DNA from: Trichormus variabilis 0441 | Lineage (GTDB): Bacteria > Cyanobacteriota > Cyanobacteriia > Cyanobacteriales > Nostocaceae | Length of the DNA stretch: 64,000 bases | Assembly (NCBI RefSeq): GCF_009856605.1 | Contig: NZ_CP047242.1 | Coordinates: 1,238,001-1,302,000, forward strand | Direction: 5' to 3' | Shown here: in pieces, positions 46,458 to 53,192 of the stretch | Layout of the letters: each line of letters begins with the position of its first letter | Numbering within the stretch: the first letter of the stretch is position 1 | Position numbers and translations under genes: made by a program | The notes under the pieces: generated by a model | Told to the model about the DNA's origin: nothing | Databases searched by the model: none | What the model saw: only the letters and a program-made list of their open reading frames with translations

Positions 46458-47045
46458 CTATTCCCCAGTTTCAGTACTGGGTTTTTGTGGTGTAATGCCA
46501 TGCAGTTTTATAAAACTGTCAAAGGAATACCAAGCTAAAACGTACCAGGGAATAATTTCAAATTGCAAACCTTTAATAATTAGCTGTCTCACTGCGAGAA
46601 TGCTAAGTCCTAATGGGAAAAGAAAACGAATATCGACAACGCCATCGGTTGCTTGTCTGACTCGTTTATTCAAATCTACAACGGCAGTTGATACAGTAGT
46701 AGCTGCTTCGGTGCTACCTTGGGTAATCTCGCCAAAAATAATTCCTAAATCTTTCAATGTTGTGAAAACGTTATCCAAATTGCCATTTTTCTCACTATAT
46801 TTAATGACAATACTGCCATGATCAACATTGGTACGCACCTCGTCAATATGAGCTTGTGCATCTAGTGCATTAGCAATATGTTCCATTGTTTCTGGTTGAC
46901 GGTGACAGTGAGCAACTCTCAACCTTAATCTTCCTGGGGTATCACTAATAATTTTTGTAGATATAGGTAAGGATGGCGTATTGAAGTTAATTTTCTGTTT
47001 AACTTTTGGCATTTTCGTGAGATTACCATGACTATTGGTCAACAT
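46458..47045 (-). CDS. HMA_2-like domain protein with C-terminal membrane helices
   Basis: 195 residues with GGAGG seven bases before the ATG. Residues 30-105 form an HMA-like ferredoxin fold introduced by ISDTPGRLRLRVAHC; the metal-binding C-x-x-C of classical HMA domains is absent. The C-terminal third has two hydrophobic stretches (FLFPLGLSILAVRQLIIKG and IIPWYVLAWYSFDSFIKL). Same-strand neighbour of the ATPase cluster, separated by an 820-base gap. Role unknown. Confidence 0.8.
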   Translation of the reverse strand: MLTNSHGNLTKMPKVKQKINFNTPSLPISTKIISDTPGRLRLRVAHCHRQPETMEHIANALDAQAHIDEVRTNVDHGSIVIKYSEKNGNLDNVFTTLKDLGIIFGEITQGSTEAATTVSTAVVDLNKRVRQATDGVVDIRFLFPLGLSILAVRQLIIKGLQFEIIPWYVLAWYSFDSFIKLHGITPQKPSTETGE

Positions 47046-47095
47046 GAGCCACCCTCCAAACTGATACTTTGGTTTATTAATTAGTTATCCAAAAT

Positions 47096-47159
47096 GTAGG
47101 GTGCGTCAGTGCAAGAAAACTTAGCTGCATCGAAAAATATTCATACTGACGCACCCTAC
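47096..47159. repeat. Inverted repeat with 15-bp arms
   Basis: GTAGGGTGCGTCAGT (47096-47110) and ACTGACGCACCCTAC (47145-47159) are exact complements around a 34-base spacer. A dispersed palindromic repeat or small MITE. Confidence 0.75.
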
Positions 47160-47455
47160 TAACCTATAAAACTAGTGCTTGAATAGCAAATTTCTCAAAT
47201 AGAAATATATTGATGAAAGTAATTATTAAGCTGTTACGCATTTAAATTGTATATTTCGCACTCAGGTTGTCAAAAGTCCACAGTCCACAGTCCAAGCTAG
47301 CCTTTGACTCTGGACTCTTGACTATGGACAGCCCTCACGCATGAATATTTGATTTAGGTGCGTATCACCTTAGTAGTGTTGCTTCAGCAATAATCAAATA
47401 TCAACGTAGATAGGTATTGCTTACCATATCCGTTTTGTGGTGGGCATTGCCCACC

Positions 47456-47706
47456 CAGCCCTTTCAACGCGATCATTTGTACTAAATTTTCCTCCAAAAA
47501 TACACGCTCAATTAATCCTTACATAATCAGGCTTAGGCGAGATTATCCAAAAAAATGCTCAATTCTAGAGGCAATAAATTGACCGCTTTTGCTTGGCGAT
47601 CGCATAAACTAGCATCGATAGCCTAGAAGCATAATTTTTGGCTCTAGTCTGGGAGCAGGTTTCAGCCTTTGGTTTAGTAGTTCATTTGTTCGCGTTGAAA
47701 GGGCTG
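47456..47706. mobile_element. 251-bp MITE-like element with 16-bp perfect terminal inverted repeats
   Basis: CAGCCCTTTCAACGCG (47456-47471) and CGCGTTGAAAGGGCTG (47691-47706) are exact inverted copies. Imperfect complementarity continues inward (ATCATTTGTACTAAA against TTTAGTAGTTCATTTG). GGGCATTGCCC-type words flank both outer ends. Interior non-coding. Confidence 0.65.
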
Positions 47707-47867
47707 GCATTGCCCACCCTACTAATCAGGTTCCGCCAATAATAATTAGATATTAAAGAATTTCATCGGCGGTTAATTAGCGAGGAAATTTTAGAGATGG
47801 GAAAATTACCCATCTCATTAATATCTAGATAAATCAGGTCGCTTCTATGGAAACGAAATCGACCAAC

Positions 47868-48170
47868 CTATACACCATTATCAGAGGAACTATCTATAGT
47901 GCTAGCAGCCTCAAATGCTGGTGTTTCCTTATCTTCTGCTAATTCAGCTTTAGCTTCAGCTACGATATCTTCCCAGGTTTCACCCAGTTCTGCAAAAGCT
48001 CCCTTGCTCTTTTCGTAAGCAACAAGACTACCTTTGATGATTGACTTGGCGATGGGTTTACCAATACCTGCAACAACTGGGATGAGAACAGGTGCTAACA
48101 AAACTGCGCCAATACCTGCAATGAGTCCAGGTGCGCCGGCTTCTTCAATGAAATCAGTGATTTTAGGCAT
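47868..48170 (-). CDS. DUF5132 family protein
   Basis: 100 residues with AGGAGG eight bases before the ATG. A hydrophobic centre (PGLIAGIGAVLLAPVLIPVV) and then a helix with GKPIAKSIIKGSLVAYEKSK, followed by an acidic tail. This matches small DUF5132 proteins, which have no assigned function and occur beside HMA_2/P-type ATPase genes as here. The ATPase gene ends 75 bases downstream-ward in the opposite sense of reading, that is the ATPase lies immediately upstream on the same strand. Confidence 0.85.
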   Translation of the reverse strand: MPKITDFIEEAGAPGLIAGIGAVLLAPVLIPVVAGIGKPIAKSIIKGSLVAYEKSKGAFAELGETWEDIVAEAKAELAEDKETPAFEAASTIDSSSDNGV

Positions 48171-48244
48171 GATTAATTCCTCCTGTAATTTGTTTGAAAA
48201 TTTGTATGAAAGCTATCTAGGCTAACCTATCTAGATTAGTCATT

Positions 48245-50557
48245 TCATCTCTCTGCTGGGAGAGCTTTTTTTGGGGATTGCTTGAGGATGGGGCGTAAAC
48301 CGTTCACTCCAGCAACTATTGTTGAGCCATTGTTGACTACTGTGGCTGCTAATGGGTTTAGACCAAACAACACCGCTACCAATAAGGCTCCCAAGTTGGG
48401 GATAGCGACGATGCCGGTGTTTTGTCGAATCAAACTCTTGGCTTGACGAGCGATCGCAATTGCTTCTAATAATCCATGTAGGTCATTCTGCATTAACACC
48501 ACATCGGCGGTTTCACGGGCGATTTCCGAACCGTGGGCAAAGGACACAGAAACATCAGCGTAGGCTAAAGCTGGCGAATCGTTGATCCCATCCCCAACAA
48601 ATGCAACTGTCTTACCTTGTTCGTGCAGTCCACGGACTACCGTTGCTTTTTGTTCGGGAAAAGCTTCTGCATGGGTATGCGCTGGGGCAATTCCCAATTC
48701 TGCTGCCACAGTCGTAGCTGTACGCTTGTTATCGCCGGTGAGCATATGGACTTCCACACCTTCTACCGTCATGAGTTGGGAAATTACTTCTCGACTCTCA
48801 GGGCGGAGAATATCACTATATCTTATTTTACCTTGAAGTTGCCCGTTACTGGCGACATAAATCACTGATGTGGCTTTGTGTCCATTGCCGTTGAGGGCTG
48901 CCATATCAACGCCTTCCTGACGTAAAAAGCGCTCACTACCGACGTAAACAGTCTCACCGTCAATTTCTGCCTTCACACCCAAACCAAGTTTATAGTCCCA
49001 TTTGCTGCGGCTGGGGATCGCTACTTGTTGGGCTTCTGCATAGCGGACTATGGCTTCGGCTACTGGGTGGGTTAAACGCTGTTCGGCGGCGGCGGCGATC
49101 GCTAATATGCGATCATGGGTAACTTCAGGATTGTAACTATCAACGCCAATTACAGCTACTTCCCCTTGGGTGAGTGTGCCTGTTTTATCAAAAACAATGG
49201 TATCAATTTCTGCTAACTGCTCTAAGGCGCGACCACTCCGAATGAGAATTCCTTGTCGTGCTGCATAGGAGAGAGCTGCTAAAACCGTTGTGGGAATGGA
49301 TACACGAATCCCTGTACATAAGTCAAGGGTAAGAATGCTGGCAACCCTGACTGGGTTACGGGTAACGGCAAATACGGCTGCCCCTAGTAGCAAAGTTGGC
49401 ACTACCGCAATTTCAGCAATTCTGGTGGCATGATTTTCCATCCGAGTATCATGAACGGGGGCTTCTTCCATCAGTTTGATGCTCTGCCCTGCTCGCGTAT
49501 CATTACCGATGCGCTCGGCAAGTATATATACTTGTCCTTCCCGTACTAAGGTTGAAGCAAATACAGACTGTCCCTGCTTTTTCAAAATGGGTACAGATTC
49601 CCCTGTTAGCTTCTGTTCATCGAGTAAAGCCTTACCTCTGAGGATTGTGCCATCTATGGGTATTTGTTCCCCTGGATAGACAATCACAGTGTCTCCTGGT
49701 AACACTTGTTGGATGGGGATTTGGGTCTTCTCACCATCACGTTCTACCCAAGCAAATTGACCCAAGGAACCCAGCAGATCCAATGTTTGCATTTTGGAAG
49801 AACGAGCAGTGCGATCGCGGATATTTTCCCCAATCTCAATTAAACTCAGCATCAGGGATGGGGTGAGAAACTGACCTTGGACTGTAGTAATGGCGATCGC
49901 AATAAAGTCTAAGAAGTCTATACTTAACTTGCGTTCCTTAACAATTCCATCTACTGCTCTTTTAAATACGGGTAAGGTTGCTAGAGCAATGGTTCCCGCC
50001 GTGACAATTGGTGGAACCGCTACTCCTAAAGGCCCCCCCAGCACCGCCAAGCCAGTGGCTAAAACCGAAAGCTGCATTCCCGGCCAAGGCTTTTCCTCTT
50101 CTTGTGGAGATACCTTTTTCGGATTCAACAAGACGATCCCAGGATCACTTGCAGCTATCATCAGACAGCCAAGACGCGATCGCATCTTAGCATCAGTTAC
50201 AGCACTGGCTTTATAGTTAACAACTAAGGATGCGGCTGCTGGCTTAATTTTAACAGTTGTCACCAGGGGATCAGCTTCCAGCAAAGTTTGTAACCTTTGT
50301 CCATAGTCTTTATCGTTGCGTAAGCGAGGTACACGCAACCGCAACCTACCCTGAATTGCATGGACAACACTATAAGTGACATGGGGAGTTTTCTTAGAGG
50401 ATTGTACTTGAGCAGAAGTTAGCGCTACTCTGCTGTTTTGTTCCCCTACTATCTTGTAAGGTAGGGAAGTTATAGATACTTCCCCACTCTTTTCCTCCAA
50501 TGTCACATAAGACTCTTTCACAGGAAGCGACGCTAGTTGAACTGTCATTTTTGCCAT
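48245..50557 (-). CDS. P1B-like heavy-metal P-type ATPase with N-terminal HMA_2 domain
   Basis: 770 residues. Residues 60-135 are an HMA_2-like module (YSVVHAIQGRLRLRVPRL) with no C-x-x-C. Actuator motif KLTGES at 317-321, phosphorylation site DKTGT starting at Asp457, HP motif near 498 (RLTHPVAEA) and hinge GDGINDSPALA near 655 are intact, so the pump should be active. The membrane motif that normally reads CPC, CPH or SPC is replaced by LDLCTGIRVSIPT (Cys414). Substrate is therefore not predictable from known P1B classes. Central gene of the HMA_2 locus. Confidence 0.92.
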   Translation of the reverse strand: MAKMTVQLASLPVKESYVTLEEKSGEVSITSLPYKIVGEQNSRVALTSAQVQSSKKTPHVTYSVVHAIQGRLRLRVPRLRNDKDYGQRLQTLLEADPLVTTVKIKPAAASLVVNYKASAVTDAKMRSRLGCLMIAASDPGIVLLNPKKVSPQEEEKPWPGMQLSVLATGLAVLGGPLGVAVPPIVTAGTIALATLPVFKRAVDGIVKERKLSIDFLDFIAIAITTVQGQFLTPSLMLSLIEIGENIRDRTARSSKMQTLDLLGSLGQFAWVERDGEKTQIPIQQVLPGDTVIVYPGEQIPIDGTILRGKALLDEQKLTGESVPILKKQGQSVFASTLVREGQVYILAERIGNDTRAGQSIKLMEEAPVHDTRMENHATRIAEIAVVPTLLLGAAVFAVTRNPVRVASILTLDLCTGIRVSIPTTVLAALSYAARQGILIRSGRALEQLAEIDTIVFDKTGTLTQGEVAVIGVDSYNPEVTHDRILAIAAAAEQRLTHPVAEAIVRYAEAQQVAIPSRSKWDYKLGLGVKAEIDGETVYVGSERFLRQEGVDMAALNGNGHKATSVIYVASNGQLQGKIRYSDILRPESREVISQLMTVEGVEVHMLTGDNKRTATTVAAELGIAPAHTHAEAFPEQKATVVRGLHEQGKTVAFVGDGINDSPALAYADVSVSFAHGSEIARETADVVLMQNDLHGLLEAIAIARQAKSLIRQNTGIVAIPNLGALLVAVLFGLNPLAATVVNNGSTIVAGVNGLRPILKQSPKKALPAER

Positions 50558-50660
50558 TTCTTAAATCTCAAAATATGTTGGATAAGCTTGTTTTTTGGAC
50601 ACTGCTGAGGAGGACAAATGCACGTCTAGCCTCTGACTCTGAGAGAATGCAGATTTGCTT

Positions 50661-51368
50661 TTATACACGACTGGATATCTTGGCAGTTGCCGCAGATTGA
50701 ATCAGACTGGAAAAGTGTGCAATTGCGACTGCGAAAATACTTTGCAATTGCTGTTTTGGCCTTTGTACTTTTCCTGGTTTGTAAATAATCACCACAGAAG
50801 CAGCCTCCCGATTAATTCGCTCACTGATCACTACTGGGTCTGATTGGAGTAAAGCTTCTAAACGTTGGACGTAGGCTGGATCTGTAGCGACTTGCGGGAC
50901 ATGAAACCGCACTCGTCCAGGGATCGCATGAACGACGCTATGAGCTACTTTTATCTGTTGCTCAGTTGGTTGTGAATGAGTGACAGACTGAGGGGGAGAG
51001 GATGAAGTTACTGGTTCTGCCGTTGGTGATCCAGGGGTTAATTCTGTATCATCCGTCATATCAGCAGACTGGAGTATATTAGCTAGATGCTCACGCATTT
51101 CCACATCAGACATTAGTCCAGACTGGTAAGCAATTACTAAAGACCCTGTAGCGAGATTAACTTCCTCCGTGGTAATCCCTGTTTCCTTTGCTAGCAACCT
51201 TTGTAGATGTTGCAAGTAGTTTGGATCTTCACTAATTCGCGGAATACAAAATGCTACTTGTCCGGGTAGGGCGTAGGTAACACTATAAAATACTTTTATG
51301 GGATGTGTGCAATTGTGGCGCGGCGGTCGCGGGACAGCATCTGATGATGAGGATGCAGAATCATCCAT
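50661..51368 (-). CDS. Protein with two HMA_2-like domains
   Basis: 235 residues, GGAGG before the ATG. Two tandem modules: SVTYALPGQVAFCIPRI (about 28-100) and SVVHAIPGRVRFHVPQV (about 140-205), joined by a Ser/Thr/Pro linker. The second is closely similar to modules in the neighbouring genes, including YVQRLEALLQSDPVV. No C-x-x-C and no membrane helix. Possibly a soluble partner of the ATPase. Confidence 0.8.
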   Translation of the reverse strand: MDDSASSSSDAVPRPPRHNCTHPIKVFYSVTYALPGQVAFCIPRISEDPNYLQHLQRLLAKETGITTEEVNLATGSLVIAYQSGLMSDVEMREHLANILQSADMTDDTELTPGSPTAEPVTSSSPPQSVTHSQPTEQQIKVAHSVVHAIPGRVRFHVPQVATDPAYVQRLEALLQSDPVVISERINREAASVVIIYKPGKVQRPKQQLQSIFAVAIAHFSSLIQSAATAKISSRV

Positions 51369-51403
51369 TTTGATTCCTCCATTGTTCCTGACTTGGGAAC
51401 GTT

Positions 51404-52561
51404 CTACAACGGCAAGTTAGCTATAAAGTTTAAAGAATAGGATAATGCGGCAGGCTTCATATCAACCCAGAAATCAGAAATATTTAGGGTTTGGTTGGCG
51501 CTGGGGGAAAATTCTGTTTCTGTTGGCTGAGTTGGCTGACTAACGGCTTCTGCTACCAACGTTGGTGAAGTTGTACTCAATTTTTCTACGGCTATATCTG
51601 CTGACTGATTGATTTTTGTTATGGGTTGTGTAGGGGGGGTTGTCTGCATGGCTAATTCCATCAGACTCACCCAATGAGATGTAGCTACCTTACCACTTTG
51701 ATAAGCGATCGCCAAAGATGCTGCATCACGATTTATCCGCACATTGTTAACCAAAGGATCAGCTTTTAATAGCCTTTCCAGGCGCTTTGCATAGGCGCGA
51801 TCGCTAGCTATTTGAGGTATATGAAACCTAATCCTACCAGGAATTTCATGGACAATACTATAAGTTACTTTCGCAGACTTAATTGTTGTCTTAGTAATTC
51901 TATTTCCTGCGCTCTCTGGCTTACTTTCTTCAGTTACTATCACAGCTTTTGCCGACTCTTTGACTGCATCTGAACCCGTAATTTGCGGTTCTAGATAGTC
52001 AATTACTAGCCGAGTTGCATCTGCCGTAATCATATAGAGGGGAATCGCCGCTAAACCACTAACTCCTAACCCTCCTGTCACCGCCAAACCTGTCATTAAG
52101 GGAATAAACGAGACAGTCTGCTCTTTCCAAAAATCTACAGATTTCCAAGGAGCAAAGGGGTCTGATAAAGGTGAATTTTGTGAAGTTTGAATATTAAGTT
52201 GTTGCAAAATACCCAACATCTGCGGTAGTGACAATTGATTTTCATCAAAGATGATTACCATACTGAGAGTTTGCTCATTACTAGCAACTTCTCTGACACT
52301 TTTATACTGTTTTAAGTGTTGGGTTATTGTCTTGATGTTGGCGCTAAAACTACCATCAGTCGCCTTGATTCGTATGCGTCCATTCGTTGCGTGTACAACC
52401 TGCATACCAGTAGCAGAAAGTTGCAACTGGGGATATTCTCCCAATCTACTGCTATTCGTATTCACTTTTACTTCATCGGTTTGACGCTGATTAGAGGTTA
52501 AGTCAGAAGATATGGTTAGATGCGGACTTAACTCTACACGACTACTAATAGTTTTTGCCAT
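51404..52561 (-). CDS. Membrane-associated protein with two HMA_2-like domains
   Basis: 385 residues. First module near 53-125 (MQVVHATNGRIRIKATDGSF), a hydrophobic segment near 152-185 (SFIPLMTGLAVTGGLGVSG), and a second module near 230-305 (YSIVHEIPGRIRFHIPQI, YAKRLERLLKADPLVNN). A hydrophobic C-terminus follows. Upstream-most gene of the cluster, 35 bases before the two-module gene, so the set is probably one transcript. Confidence 0.8.
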   Translation of the reverse strand: MAKTISSRVELSPHLTISSDLTSNQRQTDEVKVNTNSSRLGEYPQLQLSATGMQVVHATNGRIRIKATDGSFSANIKTITQHLKQYKSVREVASNEQTLSMVIIFDENQLSLPQMLGILQQLNIQTSQNSPLSDPFAPWKSVDFWKEQTVSFIPLMTGLAVTGGLGVSGLAAIPLYMITADATRLVIDYLEPQITGSDAVKESAKAVIVTEESKPESAGNRITKTTIKSAKVTYSIVHEIPGRIRFHIPQIASDRAYAKRLERLLKADPLVNNVRINRDAASLAIAYQSGKVATSHWVSLMELAMQTTPPTQPITKINQSADIAVEKLSTTSPTLVAEAVSQPTQPTETEFSPSANQTLNISDFWVDMKPAALSYSLNFIANLPL

Positions 52562-52652: not shown

Positions 52653-53192
52653 TTATTTTGTATCTTTGGCTACTATTTTTTGGTATTCTTCCTCCGTAAT
52701 TATATTTAAATTACTTTCCACGCGGTCTATAAACAGTACACCATCCAGATGATCAAATTCGTGTTGAAATATACGAGCAACAAAATCAGTTAAGGTTTGT
52801 TTTTGTAAATTTCCGTAACGATCCTTGTATTCAACCTCAATTGCTTGATGCCGAGGAACTAATCCTCTAATTCCCGGAACACTAAGACAACCTTCCCAAC
52901 CTTTGACTATTTCGGTTGAACTTCCCACTATCTTAGGGTTGATCATGGCAGTGGGTTCCATTACGGGAGCATGAGGATACCTGGGGTTAGGACGGGAAGC
53001 GACAATAAATAAACGATAAGACTGTGCTACTTGAGGGGATGCGATTCCCACGCCATTAGCCTTGGCAACCGTGGCAATTAAGTCATCAATTAATTGCTGT
53101 ATAGCTGCATCATGAATATTTTCCACCCAAGCAGCTTTTTGGCGTAATGTGGGATTGCCTAATTGAATGATGGGGAGCAATTCGGGATTCAT
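52653..53192 (-). CDS. def: Peptide deformylase
   Basis: 179 residues. All three PDF motifs are present: GVGIASPQV (motif 1), EGCLSVPG (motif 2, Cys metal ligand) and QHEFDHLDG (motif 3, HExxH). It removes the formyl group from nascent proteins. The start codon is directly preceded by a heptamer array, so no normal ribosome-binding site is visible. Confidence 0.96.

Follow-up and report, generated by a model that had tools for sequence, protein, structure and literature searches.

FezB is a P1B-6 ATPase, and fez operons reportedly encode it together with FezA, FezC and other proteins. Passages of the literature on fez (ferrosome) gene clusters (PMC11334425, PMC12016538, PMC12574912) describe FezC as a DUF4405-like cytochrome and FezB as a putative ferrous iron transporter (PMC11334425), and in C. 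difficile present FezA and FezB as required and Fur-repressed (PMC12574912). PacL proteins, as portrayed in parts of PMC9374683 and PMC13043812, cluster P-ATPases through transmembrane (TM) glycines and glutamate/alanine (E/A) repeats, and their DUF6110 relatives are encoded with P1B6 pumps. The same part of PMC9374683 gives HN in the sixth TM segment as the P1B6 mark, terms the PacL pumps P1B6-like and reports a zinc-binding DLHDHDH tail on PacL1. Here we describe a locus that resembles both systems, at positions 46458-52561 of a 64,000-nucleotide (nt) window of the Trichormus variabilis 0441 genome (contig NZ_CP047242.1, positions 1,238,001 to 1,302,000; feature coordinates are those of the window). 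We read it, tentatively and with a little less than even confidence, as a fez-related, PacL-like, NtcA-induced pump platform that most likely moves Fe(II).

An earlier, sequence-only reading of this DNA had claimed five leftward genes, and all five appear on the minus strand in the open reading frame (ORF) list of the window:

51404..52561, minus strand: H3, 385 amino acids (aa); an HMA_2 module, a TM hairpin and a second HMA_2 module (ORF, Pfam)
50661..51368, minus strand: H2, 235 aa; two HMA_2 modules, no clear TM segment, weakly hydrophobic C-terminus (ORF, Pfam)
48245..50557, minus strand: ATPase, 770 aa; P1B-6-like P-type pump with an N-terminal HMA_2 module (ORF, Pfam, tree)
47868..48170, minus strand: DUF5132 protein, 100 aa; Gly-rich TM helix and E/A-rich helix, proposed scaffold (Pfam)
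47046..47867, no strand: gap of 822 bp between DUF5132 and H1, with two inverted repeats (ORF list, repeat search)
46458..47045, minus strand: H1, 195 aa; a single HMA_2 module and a C-terminal hydrophobic hairpin (ORF, Pfam)

The families named in that reading were also right. The 100-aa protein matches DUF5132 (PF17195) at E 2e-17 and 63.4 bits (Pfam cut-off 25), and H1, H2, H3 and the ATPase match HMA_2 (PF19991) at 34.8-62.7 bits (cut-off 30).

A genome scan with the ATPase, in a sample drawn by similarity to the query, returned 79 distinct loci, 75 of them cyanobacterial (L009-L083). The gene order H3-(H2)-ATPase-DUF5132 is found in 72 of the 75; H1 accompanies it in 71 of these 72 and H2, before the ATPase, in 43. 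The def gene lies upstream in 55 of the 75, and the remaining loci (L073, L074 and L082) are paralogs or fragments. We also searched an independent sample of 386 cyanobacterial genomes, finding DUF5132 in 57 (56 over the cut-off) and HMA_2 in 65 (52 over the cut-off). HMA_2 was present in 55 of the 57 genomes with DUF5132 versus 10 of the 329 others (Fisher P 1e-53, uncorrected for kinship). An ATPase or HMA_2 relative lay at most 1.5 kb away at 29 of the 30 best-matching DUF5132 loci listed, and an ATPase relative at 27. The co-occurrence of DUF5132, HMA_2 and this ATPase, which the sequence-only reading had offered as one check, therefore holds in both samples, and the locus is not a chance neighbourhood. 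As to that reading's guess of a regulated ATPase complex, synteny and co-occurrence support the gene unit, while the complex itself is something we infer.

DUF5132 and H1 are separated by 822 bp in the window versus 57-772 bp (median 176) in 72 relatives. The ORF list has no ORF of at least 60 aa inside this gap, whose repeats (one with 30-nt arms separated by 193 nt, the other with 15-nt arms separated by 34 nt) are perhaps small mobile elements. Because of the gap and the two repeats within it, co-transcription of H1 in the window strain is uncertain. Among 106 scanned loci, dhaK (Dak1 domain) was seen in 38 and dhaL in 34, L054, L143 and L144 included; in L143 and L144, dhaK/dhaL directly follow H1.

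To place the pump, we built trees of 38 ATPases with P2-type pumps as outgroup, with and without the N-terminus; the tree program flags long branches for several rows. One clade unites the 20 cyanobacterial pumps with one from Deinococcus and with four encoded on plasmids of Arcobacter, Azospirillum, Cereibacter and Vibrio (support 97/89 without the N-terminus, 99/98 with it). Outside it lie the CPC-type pumps and two DUF1490-adjacent pumps, and the four other P1B pumps of the window genome (L147-L150) fall among or beside the CPC type. The grouping of the window pump core with P1B-6-like pumps, apart from CPC pumps, is thus well supported. With respect to FezB orthology, the window pump groups (97/89) with the plasmid pumps that we call fez-like, none of which is a proven FezB. 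All four plasmid sets have a small one-TM protein directly before the pump, labelled YtxH in two records. The Cereibacter and Azospirillum sets each contain one Pfam HMA_2 protein over the cut-off, with a second in Azospirillum under it, and the Arcobacter and Vibrio sets contain GRxR proteins, recognized by eye only. In the Arcobacter set, DUF4405 (FezC-like) is also matched weakly, and a ferritin-like protein scores below the cut-off.

The window genome carries a second pump of this clade (L129, 4448-6658, near 2484500), with HN and DFVTG; no DUF5132 or other HMA_2 protein was found within about 4-5 kb around it. On Priestia megaterium plasmid pBM400 (L127, 2751-6287), an HMA2-HMA2-ATPase-HMA2 set with the motif DFICGIK in the fourth TM segment (TM4) is possibly a Bacillota relative of the cyanobacterial system.

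The window ATPase holds all of the usual catalytic motifs (TGES 318, DKTGT 457, HP 497, TGDN 607, GDGxND 655). Its two membrane motifs are changed:

49304..49324, minus strand: DLCTGIR, at the CPx-motif place in the membrane segment before DKTGT (alignment)
48320..48334, minus strand: NNGST, at the HN-motif place in the last membrane segment (alignment)

We counted these motifs in 84 aligned ATPases, 77 rows of which were left after a length filter. NN occupies the HN position in 72 of the 77, the window pump included, and the TM4 motif of these 72 reads DFATGIR (48), DLCTGIR (23) or DLATGIR (1). Four further rows are paralogs with HN and DF[VM]TGIR, and one matched neither pattern. No cysteine is invariant among the 72 NN-type pumps, the TM4 cysteine is not conserved and there is no CPx in the membrane; six histidines are invariant, all outside the TM4 and HN/NN motifs. 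Window-type pumps conserve D412, T415, N721, N742 and N743, which suggest hard or borderline ions. HN is present in the last membrane segment of the four fez-like plasmid pumps, whose motif in the segment before DKTGT reads DYSC or DYAC, and also in the two PacL-type pumps, where CPC accompanies it. Because NN stands in the window pump where the P1B-6 mark is HN, we label it P1B-6-like and not a P1B-6 member.

The HMA_2 modules of the locus, and the hairpin between those of H3, are as follows:

52193..52411, minus strand: module H3.1, GRIRI (module alignment)
51977..52114, minus strand: H3 TM hairpin with GG, like the first TM pair of the ATPase, a likeness weak on its own (profile alignment)
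51653..51868, minus strand: module H3.2, GRIRF (module alignment)
51081..51293, minus strand: module H2.1, diverged, GQVAF (module alignment)
50736..50948, minus strand: module H2.2, GRVRF (module alignment)
50168..50380, minus strand: module ATP.1 of the ATPase, GRLRL (Pfam, module alignment)
46752..46964, minus strand: module H1.1, GRLRL (Pfam, module alignment)

Pfam places one module each in H1 and the ATPase and two each in H2 and H3, in agreement with the six that had been claimed. As had also been stated, none of the six has CxxC, the mark of classical HMA metal-binding domains; nor does any of 406 modules of related loci, collected with a hidden Markov model built from the six. The description of the modules as cysteine-poor was correct, with one cysteine in three of the six and at least one in 157 of the 406; "cysteine-free" would for that reason be wrong. 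The sequence-only reading erred in calling the modules near-identical, as pairwise identity is 21-51% (H2.2 and H3.2 being the top pair). By eye, its common signature fits ATP.1, H2.2 and H3.2 fully, while H1.1, H2.1 and H3.1 depart from it, H2.1 reading GQVAF in place of GRxR.

The alignment of the first half of H3 with the ATPase N-terminus spans the module and extends into the hairpin (P 9e-12, no reversed control). Restricted to the hairpin, the comparison yields P 0.0012, with reversed controls at 0.024 and 0.03, and H1 matches the ATPase N-terminus in the module (P 1e-10). From the H3 alignments, H3 may therefore be a detached pump N-terminus with an added second module. Some P2-type pumps, too, carry a fused HMA_2, which Pfam detects in L132 and the sequence shows in L130, L133 and L134; L130 (2551-5556), in the window's own genome, is a calcium-pump-like ATPase with the module at its N-terminus. 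A protein of about 320 aa in the same genome (L128, 3312-4271, near 1701900) has an HMA_2 match and GRARFKV, and no pump gene was seen in its 10-kb stretch.

Like the small membrane proteins beside the pumps of fez clusters, DUF5132 is a small membrane protein encoded beside a pump. By eye, the family conserves glycines 12, 15, 19 and 21 and an E/A-rich helix. We compared its profile with profiles of fez-like small proteins and of DUF1490 proteins, built from four sequences each. The match to the fez-like small proteins reached P 8e-6 and a probability of 84% over 42 columns, with reversed controls at P 0.32 and 0.56. The window protein ends in SSSDNGV, which is not a PacL-style C-terminal metal-binding motif. 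The DUF5132 proteins of Calothrix-like strains (L055, L056, L059, L060, L062 and L083) have HDHDH or HDHGQ tails. The P2-type pumps of L132-L134 are preceded by a protein of 181-194 aa and have metK on their other side; this protein contains DUF5132 by Pfam in L132 and by family search in L133 and L134. In L131 (1553-8723, near 3640700 of the window's own genome), two P2-type ATPase genes flank a DUF5132 gene.

Upstream of H3, we found a sequence tied to nitrogen control:

52726..52774, minus strand: NtcA site GTATATTTCAACAC with promoter stretch, inside def, about 200 bp before the H3 start (sequence match)

In the relevant part of PMC3898017, all2006 of Anabaena PCC 7120, annotated as "unknown protein", is the fifth-highest of 2,424 NtcA chromatin immunoprecipitation regions after nitrogen step-down and ranks above glnA. 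The 49-nt all2006 sequence printed there is found at 52726-52774 with the 14-nt site intact and 2 mismatches elsewhere. Because this match lies just upstream of H3, we take H3 to be the all2006 ortholog. A section of PMC4365693 gives all2008 as a serine proteinase, which fits htrA of the window; counting down, the DUF5132 gene would therefore be all2003 and H1 all2002. According to that section, nitrogen starvation raises all2003 4.0-fold by 12 h and 1.8-fold by 21 h, and the gene belongs to the unknown-function genes found only in that study's heterocyst formers. In the 386-genome sample, DUF5132 also occurs in families other than the window's. nifH (E ≤1e-120) was present in 31 of the 57 DUF5132 genomes versus 28 of the 329 others and, within the window's family, in 19 of 23 genomes with DUF5132 versus 10 of 20 without (P 0.048), both comparisons being uncorrected for kinship. 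For the window strain, we infer that NtcA activates the cluster rather than represses it.

The 106 loci were also scanned for neighbouring iron genes. Richelia (L054, again as L143) has feoA and feoB immediately upstream of the cluster, Tolypothrix (L063) has feoB pieces downstream of it, and in L142 feoB is near the pump; a further candidate in L137, with a 26-bit match, was taken as another GTPase. Ferritin-like genes lie beside the pump in L141, where a DUF2202 gene exceeds the Pfam cut-off, and in L120; a relative (82 bits) is in the Arcobacter set. FeoA and TonB genes lie near the Cereibacter set. Assuming about 1.5 feoB per 7-Mb genome, about 0.4 feo-neighbour loci are expected by chance, and the hint is therefore weak.

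Together, these findings tentatively suggest a role in iron handling when nitrogen runs out. In the account we tentatively prefer, the locus would encode a P-type ATPase platform, kin of the fez sets and built like PacL metal-efflux platforms. DUF5132 would act as a one-TM scaffold whose Gly-rich helix clusters pumps and whose E/A-rich helix holds them. The HMA_2 proteins, with H3 and H1 probably membrane-anchored and H2 mostly soluble, would be separate copies of the module at the pump's N-terminus that dock onto the pump and one another, gating or crowding it with no metal hand-over. NtcA would turn the cluster on at nitrogen step-down, and Fe(II) would be moved from the cytosol to the periplasm or to a membrane store inside the cell during its refitting for nitrogen fixation.

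Several observations weigh against this account. Fez-like pumps keep DY[SA]C and HN, both of which are lost in the window type, and "fez-like" itself describes gene content: the sequences compared include no proven FezB, FezA or DUF6110. The N-termini of the fez-like pumps fall below the HMA_2 cut-off (17.5 and 16 bits) or have no match, and their small protein is encoded before the pump, whereas DUF5132 follows it. There is no FezC-like gene, as DUF4405 matches none of the five locus and three neighbour proteins (E 0.01). DUF5132 matches DUF1490/PacL weakly by hhalign (P 0.0017, 16%, 21 columns; reversed controls 0.77 and 0.72), and DUF1490 does not match the fez-like small proteins (P 0.14). 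His-rich tails (at least two His within the last 30 residues), mostly HDHDH, occur in 6 of 82 DUF5132 proteins and recall the zinc-binding tail of PacL1, and the ATPase also passes the NCBIfam cadmium family TIGR01512 (352 bits, cut-off 313.5). L144 (5813-7868) has H3, DUF5132 and H1, flanked by def, and no adjacent ATPase gene, and DUF5132 is absent from 20 of the 43 genomes of the window's family. The feo neighbours amount to three separate places in the 106 loci, L054 and L063 being sister lineages in the tree, and the main text of the FurA papers does not name the locus genes. The N-terminal scores and the missing link between DUF1490 and the fez-like small proteins lowered our confidence slightly.

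A bolder extension, which we regard as decidedly doubtful, is that heterocyst formers use the NtcA-driven cluster, with a P1B-6-derived pump whose membrane site no longer has its usual Cys and His, to build a ferrosome-like, lipid-bounded iron store, banking iron during cell refitting that is later paid to nitrogenase. If so, one kind of scaffold would be common to P-type pumps of several classes, represented by DUF5132, by the small protein of the fez-like sets and perhaps by DUF6110 and DUF1490.

Among the alternatives, a PacL-type efflux platform protecting the cell from zinc or another divalent metal, with DUF5132 as scaffold, HMA_2 proteins as regulators and no iron storage, is unlikely, though it would explain several of the observations above. 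It would account for the PacL layout of DUF5132 (glycine TM helix and E/A-rich helix), the His-rich tails, mostly HDHDH, in 6 of its 82 relatives beside DLHDHDH in PacL1, the pass in TIGR01512, and the description of PacL pumps as P1B6-like in the cited part of PMC9374683. However, the window pump has neither CPC nor a conserved cysteine at its membrane site, the PacL pumps compared have CPC and lie outside the clade, the DUF5132-DUF1490 match is weak, and a detoxification pump under NtcA control would be odd. Slightly less probable is a pump for a hard cation (Mn, Mg, Ca or K) or another substrate, in which the loss of Cys and His marks a true substrate change and HMA_2 with DUF5132 is a general P-type ATPase add-on. 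The conserved D412, T415, N721, N742 and N743 without cysteine favor this possibility, as do the fusion of HMA_2 to P2-type pumps (L130, L132-L134) and the place of DUF5132 beside such pumps (L131-L134), but the pump core groups with P1B-6-like pumps, and iron-gene neighbours, though few, exist. Finally, that the genes are neighbours with no common machine, acting separately in an order inherited from a common ancestor, is consistent with the def-flanked site common to 55 of 75 loci, the distant H1 of the window and the pumpless L144, but is very improbable given that the same kinds of parts stand together in other orders and other phyla.

The Fe(II) platform account would tie one of the strongest NtcA targets of the model heterocyst former, an "unknown protein" in the tabulated part of PMC3898017, to a fez-related pump. 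A pump, a scaffold and docking modules that lack a classical metal site would form a testable link from nitrogen control to metal handling. Furthermore, HMA_2 with a small TM protein recurs with both P1B-type and P2-type pumps; this recurrence therefore possibly reflects a general assembly of P-type ATPases into membrane patches, and bears on how ferrosomes and efflux platforms are assembled.

Several described systems offer points of comparison. Classical CPC-type Cu/Zn P1B ATPases share the catalytic core; the examples in the window genome (L147-L150) differ in their CPC or SPC site, in CxxC (three of four) and in lying outside the clade. The Priestia set likewise has several HMA_2 proteins around a pump with an HMA_2-like N-terminus, and by eye its DFICGIK is intermediate between DY[SA]C and the window type. 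It differs in having no DUF5132 match among the four proteins scanned and in its long branch, which joins the pump clade at 93/85 or 87/81 only. DUF6110/P1B6 systems, as described in PMC9374683, similarly combine a small TM protein with a P1B6-type pump. The mycobacterial PacL/CtpC effluxosome (DUF1490 plus a P1B6-like ATPase) shares a small one-TM, Gly- and E/A-rich protein beside a P1B pump; the window locus differs in that Pfam finds DUF5132 only, the pump has no CPC and HMA_2 proteins are added. The window pump shares a clade with the fez-like pumps, which likewise have HMA_2/GRxR proteins and a small TM protein as neighbours. The window locus differs from fez in its NtcA site, its six HMA_2 modules and its pump motifs, which read D[FL][AC]TGIR and NN where the fez-like pumps have DY[SA]C and HN. 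Because a FezC, HN and a DUF1490 protein are missing, we file the locus by likeness and not by membership, as a cyanobacterial variant of the fez/PacL P-ATPase platform.

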